Shown: positions 2,192-15,812 of the stretch, piece by piece | How positions within the stretch are numbered: position 1 is the first letter of the stretch | Layout: every line of letters begins with the position of its first letter | Assembly (NCBI GenBank): GCA_005889295.1 | Contig: VBEY01000239.1 | Span: 1-40,164, forward strand | DNA: 40,164 nt | Source: Chloroflexota bacterium | Lineage (GTDB): Bacteria; Chloroflexota; Limnocylindria; P2-11E | Reading direction: 5' to 3' | Notes under the pieces: model-generated | What the model was told of the DNA's origin: nothing | Database searches by the model: none | Seen by the model: only the letters and a program-made list of their open reading frames with translations | Made by a program: the position numbers and the translations under genes

Positions 2192-3760
2192 CTAGGGGTG
2201 AGCGGCGGCGCTACCCGCGCCAGCCGTGGGCGAGACACCCCGCCGACGTGCGCGAATGGAGCGGACAAGCGGAATGAGCACGAGTACGATCGCGAGGACG
2301 AGGAGCACCGTCGAGAGCCCGCTGTTAAAGAAGTACAGCGGGCTTCCGTGACCGGCGATGAGCGCTTTGCGAAGCTCTCGTTCGGTCGAGTCGCCGAGGA
2401 CCAGCGCGACCACGAGGGGCGCTAGCGGGTACTTCATCTTTCGTAACCAGTAACCGATCACTCCGAAGACGACGGTGATGAACACATCGAGCATGCTGTT
2501 GTTGAGCGAGTACGACCCGATGATCGAGATGACGACGATGAACGGCGTGATGATCGCGTACGGCACCCGCATGATCATCGCGAGAAGCGGCACCGCGAGC
2601 AGGCAGAGGACGAAGGTCAAAAGGTGCCCGAGGTAGATGCTCGCGATGAGGCCCCAAACGAAGTCGGGGTGCTGGATGAACAGGACCGGGCCTGGCTGGA
2701 GGCCCCAGATGAACAGGCCGGCCATGATCACGGCGGAGGTCGGCGACCCGGGGATGCCGAGCGTGATCATGGGGACGAGCGAAGCGACGCCGGCGGAGTC
2801 GGCAGCGGCCTGCGGCCCCATGATCCCGGAGATCTCGCCTTTACCGAAGTTCTCCTTGTTCTTCGAGTACTGCCGCGCGAGGCCGTAACCGAGGAACGAC
2901 GCGGCCGTGGCGCCATGGCCGGGCAGCACGCCAAAGAAAAACCCGATGATCGCGTTCGAGAGCACCAGGCGCAGGCGCTTGCGGAGCTCGCGAACCGCTT
3001 CGAGGACGTCTCGTAGGCCCAGGCGCGCCGAGATGTTCTCGACGAATCCGATGCCCTGCTCCTCGGCGGAGGCCAGGATCTCGCCGATGCCGAAGAGGCC
3101 GATGGTCACCGGCACGAAGCTGATCCCGGAGAGAAGGGAGATCTGGCCGAAGTTGAGCCGTTGCTCGCCGGTGATGGTGTCGAACCCAATGGCCGCAAGG
3201 AGCAGGCCCAGAGCGAGCATGGCGAGGCTCTTCATCGGCGCCTCCGCCCCGAGACCGATGAGCGTGGCGAAGGACAATGCGAAGACCGCGAAGAGCTCAG
3301 CCGGTCCGAACTCGAGCGCCTTCAGCGCGATCGGTAGCGCGAAGAAGGTGAAGAGGATCGTGGATACGAGCGCTCCGAGGAACGACGAGACAAATGAGCT
3401 CGCTAGCGCGAGGCCCGGTTTGCCGAGGCGCTTCGCGAGCGGGAAGCCGTCGAAGAGCAGGACGACCGCCCACGGCTCGCCGGGGATGTTGAAGAGGATC
3501 GAGGTGATGACTCCGCCGAAGAGAGCGCCCCAGTAGATGCCGGCGAGGAAGATGATCGCAGTGGTCGCGTCGGACCCCGGCAGCGAGCCATGTGCGATGA
3601 AGACGGTGATCGGAAGGAGGATCGCGACGCCGCTCGTCCCGCCGAGCCCCGGAAGCACACCGATGACCAGACCGAGTACGACGGCGACGAAGAGCATCGC
3701 CATGTTGATCGGGTGAAGGGCGACCGCGAAGCCGCCTGCGAGCTGCCCGAAGACCTCCAT
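2192..3760 (-). CDS. tctA: Tripartite tricarboxylate transporter large membrane subunit, TctA family
   Basis: Large permease subunit (522 aa, about 12 membrane segments) of a TctCBA-type secondary transporter for carboxylates. Two copies of the family glycine/proline motif are visible: VIGVLPGLGGTSGVAILLP near residue 35 and FFGVLPGHGATAASFLGYG near residue 275, one per inverted half. The ATG at 3760 directly abuts the TAG stop of tctB, so the two are translationally coupled. Substrates known for the family include citrate, other tricarboxylates, terephthalate and similar acids; nothing here says which. The C-terminus ends in a basic tail (RSIRARRRG), consistent with a cytoplasmic end. Confidence 0.93.
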   Translation of the reverse strand: MEVFGQLAGGFAVALHPINMAMLFVAVVLGLVIGVLPGLGGTSGVAILLPITVFIAHGSLPGSDATTAIIFLAGIYWGALFGGVITSILFNIPGEPWAVVLLFDGFPLAKRLGKPGLALASSFVSSFLGALVSTILFTFFALPIALKALEFGPAELFAVFALSFATLIGLGAEAPMKSLAMLALGLLLAAIGFDTITGEQRLNFGQISLLSGISFVPVTIGLFGIGEILASAEEQGIGFVENISARLGLRDVLEAVRELRKRLRLVLSNAIIGFFFGVLPGHGATAASFLGYGLARQYSKNKENFGKGEISGIMGPQAAADSAGVASLVPMITLGIPGSPTSAVIMAGLFIWGLQPGPVLFIQHPDFVWGLIASIYLGHLLTFVLCLLAVPLLAMIMRVPYAIITPFIVVISIIGSYSLNNSMLDVFITVVFGVIGYWLRKMKYPLAPLVVALVLGDSTERELRKALIAGHGSPLYFFNSGLSTVLLVLAIVLVLIPLVRSIRARRRGVSPTAGAGSAAAHP

Positions 3761-11525: not shown

Positions 11526-12197
11526 TCACTCGCGATCGTACTTGCGCAGCACGTCCTCGAGCCCTTCACGCAGCAGCACGGCTTCCTTGGTCTTCTTCCG
11601 TTCGGCCAATGCCTTGAGGCGTGCGAGCTGCGCCGCGCTGTAGTAGGAGGACTTTAGGACCATATCGTCGCCGGGCGTCAGGCCGACCGTGTCGCCCCCC
11701 TGCTCTTTGGCGGCGTACAGCGCAAGATCCGCCTTGCGCATCAGGTCCTCGGGACCCTTCGCATCGCGCGGAATATTCGCGACGCCCACGCTCACGGTGC
11801 AACGCTGACCGCGGATGAGGACCTTCGCGATCGCGGCATCAAGATCGCGGCGGAGTCCGTCCGCGCGGAGGAAGGCCACCTCGACCGTGACACTCGGAGC
11901 GAGGACCGCGAACTCGTCGCCGCCGATGCGACCGAACGTCCACCGTTCGCGCTTTGCTGCCTTCGACAGCTCGACTGTAACGGCACCGATCGCGCGATCG
12001 CCGGCCTCGCGACCGTGTGTGGTGTTGAGCTCGTGCAGGTTGTCGAGGTCGAGCAGCAAAAGCGTGATCTGACTCTCCGCGCGTCCGTGTGACTCCTTCC
12101 AGACCATGTTTAGCGCGGCACCGAACGCCGGGCCGGTGAGGCATCCATCCTTGTCGAGCCGTATCCGAACGCTCTTGTCCTGCACTGCCCTGGCCAT
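11526..12197 (-). CDS. Soluble GGDEF-domain diguanylate cyclase
   Basis: Makes cyclic di-GMP from two GTP. The 223-aa protein is essentially one GGDEF domain with no sensor: LLLLDLDNLHELNTTHGREA (46-65, metal-binding Asp50), RIGGDEFAVL (90-99, intact GGDEF), TVSVGVA (134-140), ADLALYAAKEQGGDTVGL (156-173). There is no RxxD inhibitory site five residues before GGDEF, so product feedback is unlikely. A basic helical tail (LARLKALAERKKTKEA) follows. I chose ATG 12197, residue 10 of the longest frame, because GGAGG precedes it at 4 nt and a consensus promoter lies 27 nt upstream. Expression level may set activity, since no sensory domain is fused. Confidence 0.9.
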   Translation of the reverse strand: MARAVQDKSVRIRLDKDGCLTGPAFGAALNMVWKESHGRAESQITLLLLDLDNLHELNTTHGREAGDRAIGAVTVELSKAAKRERWTFGRIGGDEFAVLAPSVTVEVAFLRADGLRRDLDAAIAKVLIRGQRCTVSVGVANIPRDAKGPEDLMRKADLALYAAKEQGGDTVGLTPGDDMVLKSSYYSAAQLARLKALAERKKTKEAVLLREGLEDVLRKYDRE

Positions 12198-12223
12198 AAC
12201 ACCTCCAGCCGCGTAACGCCACA

Positions 12224-12252
12224 TATATATATCTCAGACATAAGTACGTCAA
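12224..12252 (-). promoter_or_regulatory. Consensus housekeeping promoter of the diguanylate cyclase gene
   Basis: Reading the minus strand, TTGACG (12252-12247) is followed by a 17-nt spacer and TATATA (12229-12224). The expected transcript would start near 12217, giving a leader of about 20 nt that carries the GGAGG of the cyclase gene. This AT-rich patch stands out from its surroundings and is the best match to a full -35/-10 promoter in the window. Confidence 0.7.
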
Positions 12253-12482: not shown

Positions 12483-12488
12483 TACACT
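12483..12488 (+). promoter_or_regulatory. -10 element of the ileS T-box leader
   Basis: TACACT at 12483-12488 would start transcription near 12495, about 12 nt before the first hairpin of the T-box. The same hexamer is used on the opposite strand upstream of the tetR gene. No clear -35 is visible at the usual distance. Confidence 0.4.
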
Positions 12489-12494
12489 CGTCGC

Positions 12495-12653
12495 ACAAGC
12501 GTGTAAGGGGCCATCCACCCCGAGCTGCCGGAAGAAGACGAGTAGAACCGGCCGGACCGCGCACCGTTACCGGCGCAGCGAGTGGACGCAGGCCGCGTCA
12601 ACTCGGGTGGTACCACGGCGTGCGGCCGTCCCGAGAAGTCGGGACGGCTTTTT
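12495..12653 (+). ncRNA. T-box riboswitch (ultrashort stem I, isoleucine specifier) controlling ileS
   Basis: The leader senses uncharged tRNA-Ile. Its landmarks run in the usual order. A minimal stem I, GGGG-CCAUCCA-CCCC (12507-12521), presents an AUC codon (12513-12515) in its loop. Stem II, GCCGG/CCGGC (12527-12531 with 12548-12552), encloses an AGUAGAA S-turn-like motif. The antiterminator pairs CUCGGG (12602-12607) with CCCGAG (12630-12635) and ACGGC with GCCGU, with the 7-nt bulge UGGUACC (12608-12614) containing the UGGU that pairs with the tRNA acceptor end. The competing terminator is separate below. Binding of uncharged tRNA would favour the antiterminator and ileS transcription. 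The T-box core and terminator are certain by eye; the stem I specifier is inferred from pairing. Confidence 0.92.
12625..12653 (+). terminator. Intrinsic terminator of the ileS T-box
   Basis: GCCGTCCCGA (12625-12634), loop GAAG, TCGGGACGGC (12639-12648), followed by TTTTT and GTTTG. A 10-bp GC-rich stem plus T tract is a strong Rho-independent terminator. Its 5-prime arm overlaps the 3-prime side of the antiterminator (12625-12635), so the two folds are mutually exclusive. Confidence 0.93.
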
Positions 12654-12674
12654 GTTTGTGCGAGGAGATCGAGC

Positions 12675-15600
12675 ATGGCGAAGGCGAGCGAAAGAGCGCG
12701 ATTCCGGCCGGTCGGCGGGAAGCTCGACCTGGCCGAGGTCGACCACCGCGTCCTCGATCTCTGGGAGCGCGAGGACACCTTCAACCTGCTCCGAAAGAAG
12801 AACGCCGGCGGGCCACGCTTCTCGTTCATTGACGGACCGATCACGGCGAACGTCGAGGGGATGGGGATCCATCACGCCTGGGCGCGCACCTATAAAGACG
12901 TCTACCAGCGCTACAAGGCGATGCGCGGCTTCGATCAGCGTTACCAAAACGGCTTCGACTGCCAGGGTCTCTGGGTTGAGGTGCAGGTCGAGCGCGAGCT
13001 GAACCTCAACAGCAAACGCGATATCGAGACGTACGGCATCGCGAAGTTCTCCGACGCCTGCCGCGCGCGCGTGGATCGCTCCGCCGCGGCGATCACCAAG
13101 CACTCCATCCGCATGGGCCAGTGGATGGATTGGGCGAACTCGTACTTCACGTACACCGACCTGAACATCTCGCACATCTGGCACGTCCTGAAGCTCTGCC
13201 AGGAAAAGGGTTGGCTCTACAAGGGCCATCGCTCGATGCCCTGGTGCGCGCGATGCGGCACCGCCCTGTCCCAGCACGAGATGATCGACAGCTACCGCGA
13301 GATGACGCATTTGAGCGTCTACGTCCGGTTCCCGATCGAAGGACGGAAGAATGAGTCGTTCCTCGTTTGGACCACGACGCCGTGGACGCTTCCCGCGAAC
13401 GTCGCGCTCGCCATCAATCCGGACATCGAGTACGTGCGTGTAGAAGTGGGCGACGAGGCATTCATCGTTGCCAAGGCGGCCGCCGAGCAAATCTTTGAGC
13501 GCGCGGTGATCAGGAACCAAACCGCAATAGAGGCCCGTTCCCTGCTGGGCCTTCGCTACACGGGCCCATTCGACGGGCTGCCAGCCTCGAGCGAAGGCGT
13601 CGTCGGCCACCGCGTCATCGAGTGGAAAGATGTCACGGCCGCAGAGGGGACCGGGCTCGTCCACATCGCTCCCGGCTGCGGTGCCGAGGACTTCGCGCTC
13701 TCGAAGACCGAGAAGCTGCCCGTTCTCGTGCCGATCGACGAGATGGCTCGTTTCGTGAAGGGTTATGACTGGCTCGAGGGCAAGGACGCGCGGGATGTCG
13801 CGCGCGAGATCGCCGACGACCTCGAGAAGCGAGGCCGTCTCTTCCGTGCTGCCGACTACACGCACCGGTATCCCGACTGCTGGCGGTGCCACGAAGAGAT
13901 CGTCTTCCGCGTCGACGACGAGTGGTTCATCTCGATGGAGGAGCTCCGACCGAAGCTCATGGCCGCGGCCGAAAAGGTGACCTGGCTACCCCCCGCCGCG
14001 GGACGGCGGATGCAGAACTGGCTGCACAACATGGGCGATTGGAACATCAGCCGCAAGCGCTACTGGGGCCTCCCTCTTCCTTTCTATACGTGCGCGAACG
14101 GCCACTTCTTCGTCGTCGGGAGCGAGGAGGAGCTGCGGAAGCTCGCGAAGCGCGGCCTCGACAGGCTTCGCGAGCTGCACCGCCCGTGGATCGACGACGT
14201 CGTGGTCGGCTGCCCAACGTGCGGGGCGGATAGCAAGCGGGTGAAGGAGGTCGGTGACTGTTGGCTCGATGCCGGCATCGTCCCTTTCTCGACGCTCGAC
14301 TGGCTGCACGACAAGGATTACTGGGCGCGGTGGTTCCCGGCCGACTACATCGTCGAGATGGTCGAGCAGGTCCGGTTGTGGTTCTACTCGCAGCTTTTCT
14401 TTTCCGTAGTACTCACTGGCGAGGCACCGTACAAGGTCTGCCAGTCATTCCAGCCAATGCTCGCGGCACCGGGCGAGGAGTTCCACAAGTCCGGCGGCAA
14501 CATGGTCGATCTCTACGAAGCCTGCGAGCTCGTCGGCGCGGACGCGATCCGCTGGATCGTGGCGCGCGAGGACCTGCAGGAGATCATGTATTTCGGGTGG
14601 CCGCCGTTCGAGGATTTCAAGCGAAAGCTGCTCGTCCTCTGGAACACATATTCCTTCTTTGTCCGGTATGCGACCTTGGATCAATTCGACCCGTCCGAGA
14701 AGCAGGTCCCGATCGCGGAACGGCCACTCCTGGACCGCTGGGTGCTCTCGACGCTCGCCCGGCTCGTCGCGGAGTCGCGCGCATTGATGGACGCCTACGA
14801 CGTGCGAGCCGTCGTCTTCAAGCTCGAGGCGTTCTGGGACGACCTCTCGACGTGGTATCTGCGCCGCAATCGTCCGCGCTTCTGGAAGGCCCGCTCGGAG
14901 CGTGACTCCCTCGCCGCGTACCAGACGCTGTACGAAGCGCTCACCACGCTGATCCGGCTGCTCGCTCCGGTGACGCCCTTCCTCGCCGAGGATATGTATC
15001 AGGGCGTGGTTCGTGAGGCGTCGCCGAGCGCCGAGGCGTCTGTCCACCTTACGGCGTACCCGGAGGAATGTCCCGAACGAGTCGATGAAGATCTCGAGCG
15101 GCGGATGCGGGCCGCGCGCCGCGTGGTCGAGCTGGGTCGAGCCGCTCGTTCCTCGGCGGGCGTGAAGACGCGGATGCCGCTGTCGAAGCTCATCGTCGTC
15201 TTCGACGCGAACGACCGCGACCGTGGGGCGCTCGACACCGGCTCGGAGCTGGCCGACATCGTGAAGGACGAGCTCAACGTAAAAGCGATCGAGATCCGAG
15301 ACGCCGCGGAAGGTCTCGTAAGGGAGACGGTGAAGCCGGACCTCAAGGTGCTCGGGCCGAAGCTCGGCAAGGACCTCCCACGAGTGCGACAGGCGCTCGC
15401 CGAGGGACGGTACGAGCGTCGTGATGGAACGATCAGGGTCGAGGGCTTCGAGCTGTCGGACACAGAGGTCCTCCTGTCACACGAGGGCGCGCCCGGCCAT
15501 GCCGTTGGTCGCGACGCGGGTGCCATCGTCGCGCTCGAAACCAAGGTCACCCCGGAGCTCGAGCTCGAAGGGCTCGCTCGCGAGCTCGCGCATCACCTGA

Positions 15601-15812
15601 ACAACCTCCGCAAGGAGGCGGGCCTCGAAATCTCCGACCGCATCGCGCTTCGCTATTCAGGTCCCATCTCGCGCGCGTTCGAGCGGTACGGCGACTTCAT
15701 CGCGCAGGAAGCGCTCGCCACGAGCATCAAAGAGGGGCTCCACGACCGCGGCCACAAGTGGGAGGGCGAGCTGAACGGGGTGCCGGGCAAGCTCGAGCTG
15801 GAGAAAGCGTGA
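12675..15812 (+). CDS. ileS: Isoleucyl-tRNA synthetase, type 2, with GXHH-type HIGH motif
   Basis: Charges tRNA-Ile with isoleucine; 1045 aa, full length. ATG 12675 has GAGGAG 7 nt upstream and follows the T-box terminator. Class I signatures are present but altered: the HIGH region reads GPITANVEGMGIHHAW (54-69), giving GIHH, and the KMSKS loop reads EEFHKSGGNMV (601-611). The CP1 editing domain is intact (LVWTTTPWTLPANVALAINP and GTGLVHIAPGCGAEDF). The zinc-type segment PWCARCGTALSQ and the C-terminal DUF5915 domain (TPELELEGLARELAHHLNNL) mark the type 2, eukaryote-like clade. Type 2 enzymes, and especially GXHH variants, are known for mupirocin resistance; whether this one is resistant is inference. 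The frame is intact and shows no sign of decay. Confidence 0.96.
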   Translation: MAKASERARFRPVGGKLDLAEVDHRVLDLWEREDTFNLLRKKNAGGPRFSFIDGPITANVEGMGIHHAWARTYKDVYQRYKAMRGFDQRYQNGFDCQGLWVEVQVERELNLNSKRDIETYGIAKFSDACRARVDRSAAAITKHSIRMGQWMDWANSYFTYTDLNISHIWHVLKLCQEKGWLYKGHRSMPWCARCGTALSQHEMIDSYREMTHLSVYVRFPIEGRKNESFLVWTTTPWTLPANVALAINPDIEYVRVEVGDEAFIVAKAAAEQIFERAVIRNQTAIEARSLLGLRYTGPFDGLPASSEGVVGHRVIEWKDVTAAEGTGLVHIAPGCGAEDFALSKTEKLPVLVPIDEMARFVKGYDWLEGKDARDVAREIADDLEKRGRLFRAADYTHRYPDCWRCHEEIVFRVDDEWFISMEELRPKLMAAAEKVTWLPPAAGRRMQNWLHNMGDWNISRKRYWGLPLPFYTCANGHFFVVGSEEELRKLAKRGLDRLRELHRPWIDDVVVGCPTCGADSKRVKEVGDCWLDAGIVPFSTLDWLHDKDYWARWFPADYIVEMVEQVRLWFYSQLFFSVVLTGEAPYKVCQSFQPMLAAPGEEFHKSGGNMVDLYEACELVGADAIRWIVAREDLQEIMYFGWPPFEDFKRKLLVLWNTYSFFVRYATLDQFDPSEKQVPIAERPLLDRWVLSTLARLVAESRALMDAYDVRAVVFKLEAFWDDLSTWYLRRNRPRFWKARSERDSLAAYQTLYEALTTLIRLLAPVTPFLAEDMYQGVVREASPSAEASVHLTAYPEECPERVDEDLERRMRAARRVVELGRAARSSAGVKTRMPLSKLIVVFDANDRDRGALDTGSELADIVKDELNVKAIEIRDAAEGLVRETVKPDLKVLGPKLGKDLPRVRQALAEGRYERRDGTIRVEGFELSDTEVLLSHEGAPGHAVGRDAGAIVALETKVTPELELEGLARELAHHLNNLRKEAGLEISDRIALRYSGPISRAFERYGDFIAQEALATSIKEGLHDRGHKWEGELNGVPGKLELEKA

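Follow-up and report, generated by a model that had tools for sequence, protein, structure and literature searches.

The ileS gene of a Chloroflexota bacterium (Limnocylindria; assembly GCA_005889295.1) is preceded by a leader that is, very probably, a tRNA-Ile-responsive T-box in which a Class III sensor with an ultrashort Stem I is joined to a transcription-attenuation output. All T-box modules apart from the elbow-binding tip of Stem I are present in its sequence. Judged from sequence, the family of leaders to which it belongs is a new combination, a Class III sensor with a Class I-type output, its two halves being assigned to different classes. The window analysed was a stretch of 40,164 nt (contig VBEY01000239.1, positions 1 to 40,164), to which all unlabelled coordinates refer. 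Among named organisms, Chloroflexi known as MAGs from soil are its nearest relatives.

Sensor and switch of the ileS leader

The leader (12493–12653; ∼160 nt) lies between a divergent GGDEF gene and ileS, and comprises or adjoins the following features:

11526–12224, minus strand: GGDEF gene, divergent, upstream neighbour of the leader
12483–12488, plus strand: -10-like promoter box TACACT, 18 nt upstream of the Stem I helix
12498–12506, plus strand: 5' side of the Stem I base, AGC (pairing with 12524–12526) and K-turn strand GUGUAA; base-helix covariation
12507–12521, plus strand: ultrashort Stem I, GGGG/CCCC with 7-nt loop CCAUCCA; paired in 20/20 leaders
12513–12515, plus strand: specifier AUC (isoleucine); invariant in 20/20 leaders
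12527–12552, plus strand: Stem II, 12527–12531 with 12548–12552; compensatory changes at two pairs
12532–12536 and 12541–12546, plus strand: Stem II S-turn strands AAGAA and AGUAGA; sequence motif
12553–12576, plus strand: Stem IIA/B pseudoknot, IIA 12553–12555 with 12564–12566 and IIB 12559–12562 with 12573–12576
12564–12569, plus strand: F-box CCGUUA, within the pseudoknot
12585–12599, plus strand: Stem III, GACGC-AGGCC-GCGUC; two-sided changes at five of five pairs, 100% paired
12602–12635, plus strand: antiterminator, helices A1 (12602–12607 with 12630–12635) and A2 (12615–12619 with 12625–12629); RF00230 match, pair counts, −16.4 kcal/mol
12608–12614, plus strand: T-box bulge UGGUACC; invariant in 20 leaders
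12625–12657, plus strand: intrinsic terminator, 10-bp stem 12625–12648 and U tract 12649–12657; −20.6 kcal/mol
12663–12667, plus strand: Shine-Dalgarno AGGAG, from sequence; outside the terminator hairpin
12675–15812, plus strand: ileS, isoleucyl-tRNA synthetase; TIGR00392, 732 bits, above cut-off

A preliminary description of this DNA had proposed a 4-bp stem presenting AUC, a Stem II carrying AGUAGAA, a UGGUACC bulge and a 10-bp terminator with a T tract whose 5' arm overlaps the antiterminator. Each was recovered, the stem exactly where it had been placed and AGUAGAA at 12541–12547. The specifier agrees with the downstream ileS gene in all 20 homologous leaders, in every one of which it sits in a 7-nt apical loop, CNAUCNA. 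Other T-boxes have a conserved purine directly 3' of the specifier; in the source leader this base is C, it varies among relatives, and an invariant A follows one base later. The K-turn was recognised by comparison with RF00230, and its strand carries UAA here versus GA in most relatives. The base helix of Stem I is 3 bp, with G-C/A-U exchanges at two of the three pairs in the leader alignments; IIA changes from CGG/CCG to CCC/GGG, and IIB shows pair exchanges in a MAFFT alignment of ten leaders. Neither an AGAGA/UGxRA loop pair nor an elbow-binding tip is found in the source ileS leader. Taken by itself, the 4-bp stem has a folding energy that does not reach significance (z −0.48 for a 37-nt segment), so the support for this Stem I is its conservation in 20 species.

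A longer Stem I further upstream, set beforehand as the finding that would overturn the proposal, was not found. The upstream gene is divergent, and each of the 20 leaders has a TAnACT box 16–20 nt ahead of the short stem, too close for a longer stem to fit between. A scan of the ileS intergenic region returned no consensus sigma-70 site.

On the output side, the terminator reads GCCGUCCCGA-GAAG-UCGGGACGGC (12625–12648) followed by UUUUUGUUU, with 8 T in the first 9 positions. It is the sole terminator-like site that the scan detected in the intergenic region, and its hairpin is stable relative to shuffled sequences (z −6.1). Its 5' arm is the 3' arm of the antiterminator, with a common strand at 12625–12635, and the two folds are therefore mutually exclusive.

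Following the established T-box mechanism, we infer that uncharged tRNA-Ile would stabilise the antiterminator and that charged tRNA-Ile would not. The AUC loop would pair with the GAU anticodon, and the Stem II S-turn, set in position by the K-turn and the IIA/B pseudoknot, would clamp the codon-anticodon duplex and so stand in for contact with the elbow. The 3' NCCA of uncharged tRNA would then pair with UGGU of the bulge, holding the antiterminator and allowing RNA polymerase to read into ileS; charged tRNA would be unable to do so, and the terminator, ∼4 kcal/mol stronger, would form and stop transcription. A tRNA-Ile(GAU) gene was not found in the source assembly, which is incomplete.

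Conservation and output across the family

A leader model was built from ten leaders and run on 28 sampled species of the source family, a group of uncultured Chloroflexota. Full homologous ileS leaders, spanning six genera, were present in 20 of the 28, or 20 of the 22 in which the 5' region of ileS was readable; six of the eight species without a leader are uninformative, their ileS being truncated or not found. Across the 20 leaders 98.4% of pair cells were paired, versus 32–49% with slid partners, and 14 pairs had changes on both sides (mean of 5.4 in shuffles, with 0 of 500 reaching 14), although these pair counts lean towards the model because the 20-leader alignment was fitted to it. 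The MAFFT alignment of ten leaders agrees, with 10 two-sided-change pairs and 0 of 500 shuffles. Covariation was seen in the K-turn base helix, Stem II, IIA, Stem III and the antiterminator. The apical stem is 100% paired and nearly invariant; a single compensatory change (G-C to A-U, in G052) makes its covariation thin, so that, of the two comparative predictions in the preliminary description, conservation of AUC was borne out in full and covariation of the 4-bp stem only slightly.

A terminator with a U tract is present in 18 of the 20 leaders, a count that includes two (G037 and G004) whose stems, containing a mismatch or a G-U pair, were shortened by the exact-match script and were read from the sequence. 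Together with the position of the Shine-Dalgarno outside the hairpin, this supports the earlier suggestion that a reduced Stem I combined with a strong terminator apparently controls transcription. The short-stem T-boxes studied by experiment all regulate translation (PMC10482949, PMC7583486), and one leader of this same family (G067) appears to do so; the source leader might likewise still bind tRNA but in reality act on translation, with its hairpin left over as a structural relic or working only as a partial terminator. We consider this improbable, given that the source Shine-Dalgarno sits 14–18 nt past the hairpin and that hairpin and U tract are conserved in 18 of 20 species.

Several members of the family depart from the common form. 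The short-stem T-box of G025 (L006:2797-3010) has a terminator hairpin but no U tract after it. The short-stem T-box of G067 (L010:2838-3010) has a Shine-Dalgarno sequestrator in place of a terminator, the antiterminator's 3' arm pairing with GGGAGG ahead of the start codon; this leader is predicted to be translational, so that output would have changed within the family. G055 (L141) has ileS and has lost the T-box, none being detected just before the ileS start by Rfam or the family model. In G077 (L142:588-689, equivalent to L008 near 2900-3000) all that is left of the leader is a hairpin resembling Stem I, GGGG-CCAUCA-CCCC; S-turn and T-box are missing, and the hairpin may be a vestige or a remnant that sequesters the Shine-Dalgarno (CCUC...GGAGG).

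Such losses among near relatives, G055 without a T-box and G077 with only the Stem I remnant, would be expected if the source leader were itself decaying, sensing having ended with loss of the Stem I tip and a fixed terminator merely lowering ileS expression. Decay would not, however, preserve AUC, the S-turn and UGGUACC as invariant elements, nor covarying pairs, in 20 species of six genera; we therefore consider this explanation very unlikely and favour that of a working T-box attenuator.

Origin of the short stem

The elbow-binding tip was probably deleted in place from a transcriptional T-box, since long Stem I arms occur both in the ileS leader of the sister family and in the five other T-boxes of the source genome. 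The sister family is represented by a single species, G007, whose ileS leader has a normal long Stem I and a terminator (97 bits), and farther off in the class long forms also precede ileS in one other family. The five other T-boxes, which carry AGAGA/UGxRA-type elbow-binding loops, precede pheS, leuS, probable trpE, valS and thrS (names read from downstream sequence). Starting at the specifier and continuing through Stem II, the short-stem leader of G067 can be aligned to the long-stem leader of G007 with hardly a gap, the pattern that a deletion of all that lay above the specifier loop would leave.

We thus envisage an ancestor of the family with an ordinary transcriptional T-box of the long type, which would have lost its Stem I beyond the specifier loop; one genus may afterwards have moved its output to translation. 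A path from long transcriptional to short transcriptional to short translational forms is plausible. Whether the elbow tip was lost in one step with the transcription switch retained, one branch then becoming translational and so connecting Class I with Class III by an evolutionary path, we judge to be an even call. In a tree of ileS, G007 falls beside G067 and G077 (96/95), which conflicts with the family labels; owing to the long branches of G007 and the outgroup, the tree was not used for counting changes.

Alternatively, an actinobacterial ileS T-box could have been the source of the short-stem leader, with the terminator gained after its import. For Stem I/II of many leaders the ileS leader of Nonomuraea gerenzanensis (L125), whose single chromosome represented the Actinobacteria in this comparison, gives scores of mostly 27–52 versus mostly 14–48 for G007 (top shuffled score 29). 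Because the sensor halves of several leaders are thus nearer to the actinobacterial leader, the in-place origin is no more than probable, and the sensor half may have come from Actinobacteria. Import nevertheless seems unlikely: G067 aligns best to G007 (57), ileS protein identity is 62% to G007 as opposed to 38% to Nonomuraea (47% in the next family), the terminator architecture is the same as in other T-boxes of the source genome, and the Nonomuraea Stem I is of an intermediate rather than ultrashort kind. The Nonomuraea leader (L125:1276-1439; its 11.85-Mb chromosome is catalogued among plasmids) is a T-box with a Stem I of intermediate length, of Class IV by its sequence, and its K-turn and Stem II are very similar in sequence to those of the source family; it differs in presenting the specifier beside a longer Stem I, and no U-tract terminator was seen in it.

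Relation to known T-boxes and detection

Class III T-boxes have a short Stem I with an apical specifier in a loop of 5–6 nt and require Stem II, and control by Classes III and IV is described as “mostly” translational, a wording that allows for exceptions (PMC10482949). The source leader shares with the Class III ileS leaders of Nocardia farcinica and Mycobacterium tuberculosis the short Stem I without elbow motif, the apical AUC, the K-turn, the Stem II S-turn, the IIA/B pseudoknot and the ileS target. Those leaders hide the Shine-Dalgarno and act on translation, whereas the source leader has a terminator on the antiterminator strand; its loop is also longer, at 7 nt, and the base after its specifier is not a conserved purine. 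With Class I (the B. subtilis tyrS type, represented in the same taxonomic order by the G007 ileS leader) it has in common the antiterminator/terminator switch, Stem II, the pseudoknot and Stem III, but at ∼160 nt it has no Stem I beyond the specifier loop and hence no elbow-binding tip.

The division between long Stem I with transcription and short Stem I with translation has been explained kinetically, elbow contact speeding the capture of tRNA before the terminator is made (PMC7583486), and current reviews deem a short-arm sensor with a transcription stop unlikely. The short-stem transcriptional form proposed here conflicts with the idea that elbow contact is indispensable to transcriptional T-boxes, and short-stem leaders with terminators throughout a family would be a natural counter-example to the kinetic explanation of the long Stem I. 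If the tip was indeed lost in one step with the switch retained, elbow contact would be unnecessary to beat RNA polymerase to the terminator. Single-round transcription assays could be run on these leaders directly, with the G007 ileS leader and the genome's own long-stem T-boxes as matched controls.

The Rfam covariance search suggested with the preliminary description gave a match to RF00230 from end to end (49 bits, E 8e-10, 501 bases searched), from which almost the whole of Stem I is absent. The score is under the curated gathering cut-off of 93 bits, so a default Rfam scan reports nothing; since RF00230 is weighted to long Stem I arms, this reflects a limit of detection rather than a structural failure. 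TBDB searched its class II model in Actinobacteria, with the addition of class I hits whose Stem I is truncated (PMC7778990), which suggests that this restriction would also miss such leaders. More of them may therefore exist, the Rfam cut-off being shown to miss leaders and the TBDB restriction probably doing so too. An ileS T-box has been reported in Dehalococcoides, another Chloroflexota class (PMC2494555). In a sample of 400 genomes of the phylum, which is not exhaustive, we found no other short-stem T-boxes: every strong match from beyond the family, like 20 additional shorter ones from other families, proved to have a long Stem I. A plasmid search with the ileS leader gave no match. None of the papers searched contains a description of a short-stem T-box with an intrinsic terminator; an earlier report may exist in the subscription literature.

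A separate observation concerns the leuS T-box leader of the source genome (L014:1501-1804), which contains a tRNA-Ala(GGC) gene with an encoded CCA (L014:1679-1753; G000:C15). The gene occupies the Stem III loop, flanked by GAGAGC/GCUCUC, and is the only tRNA-Ala(GGC) among the genome's 30 best tRNA matches. ARAGORN also places this tRNA in the equivalent leaders of ∼17 genomes of the source and sister families (L019, L022-L029, L031, L036, L038, L039 and L041-L043). A tRNA inside a tRNA-sensing riboswitch poses the question of how cutting by RNase P coexists with the leuS decision.
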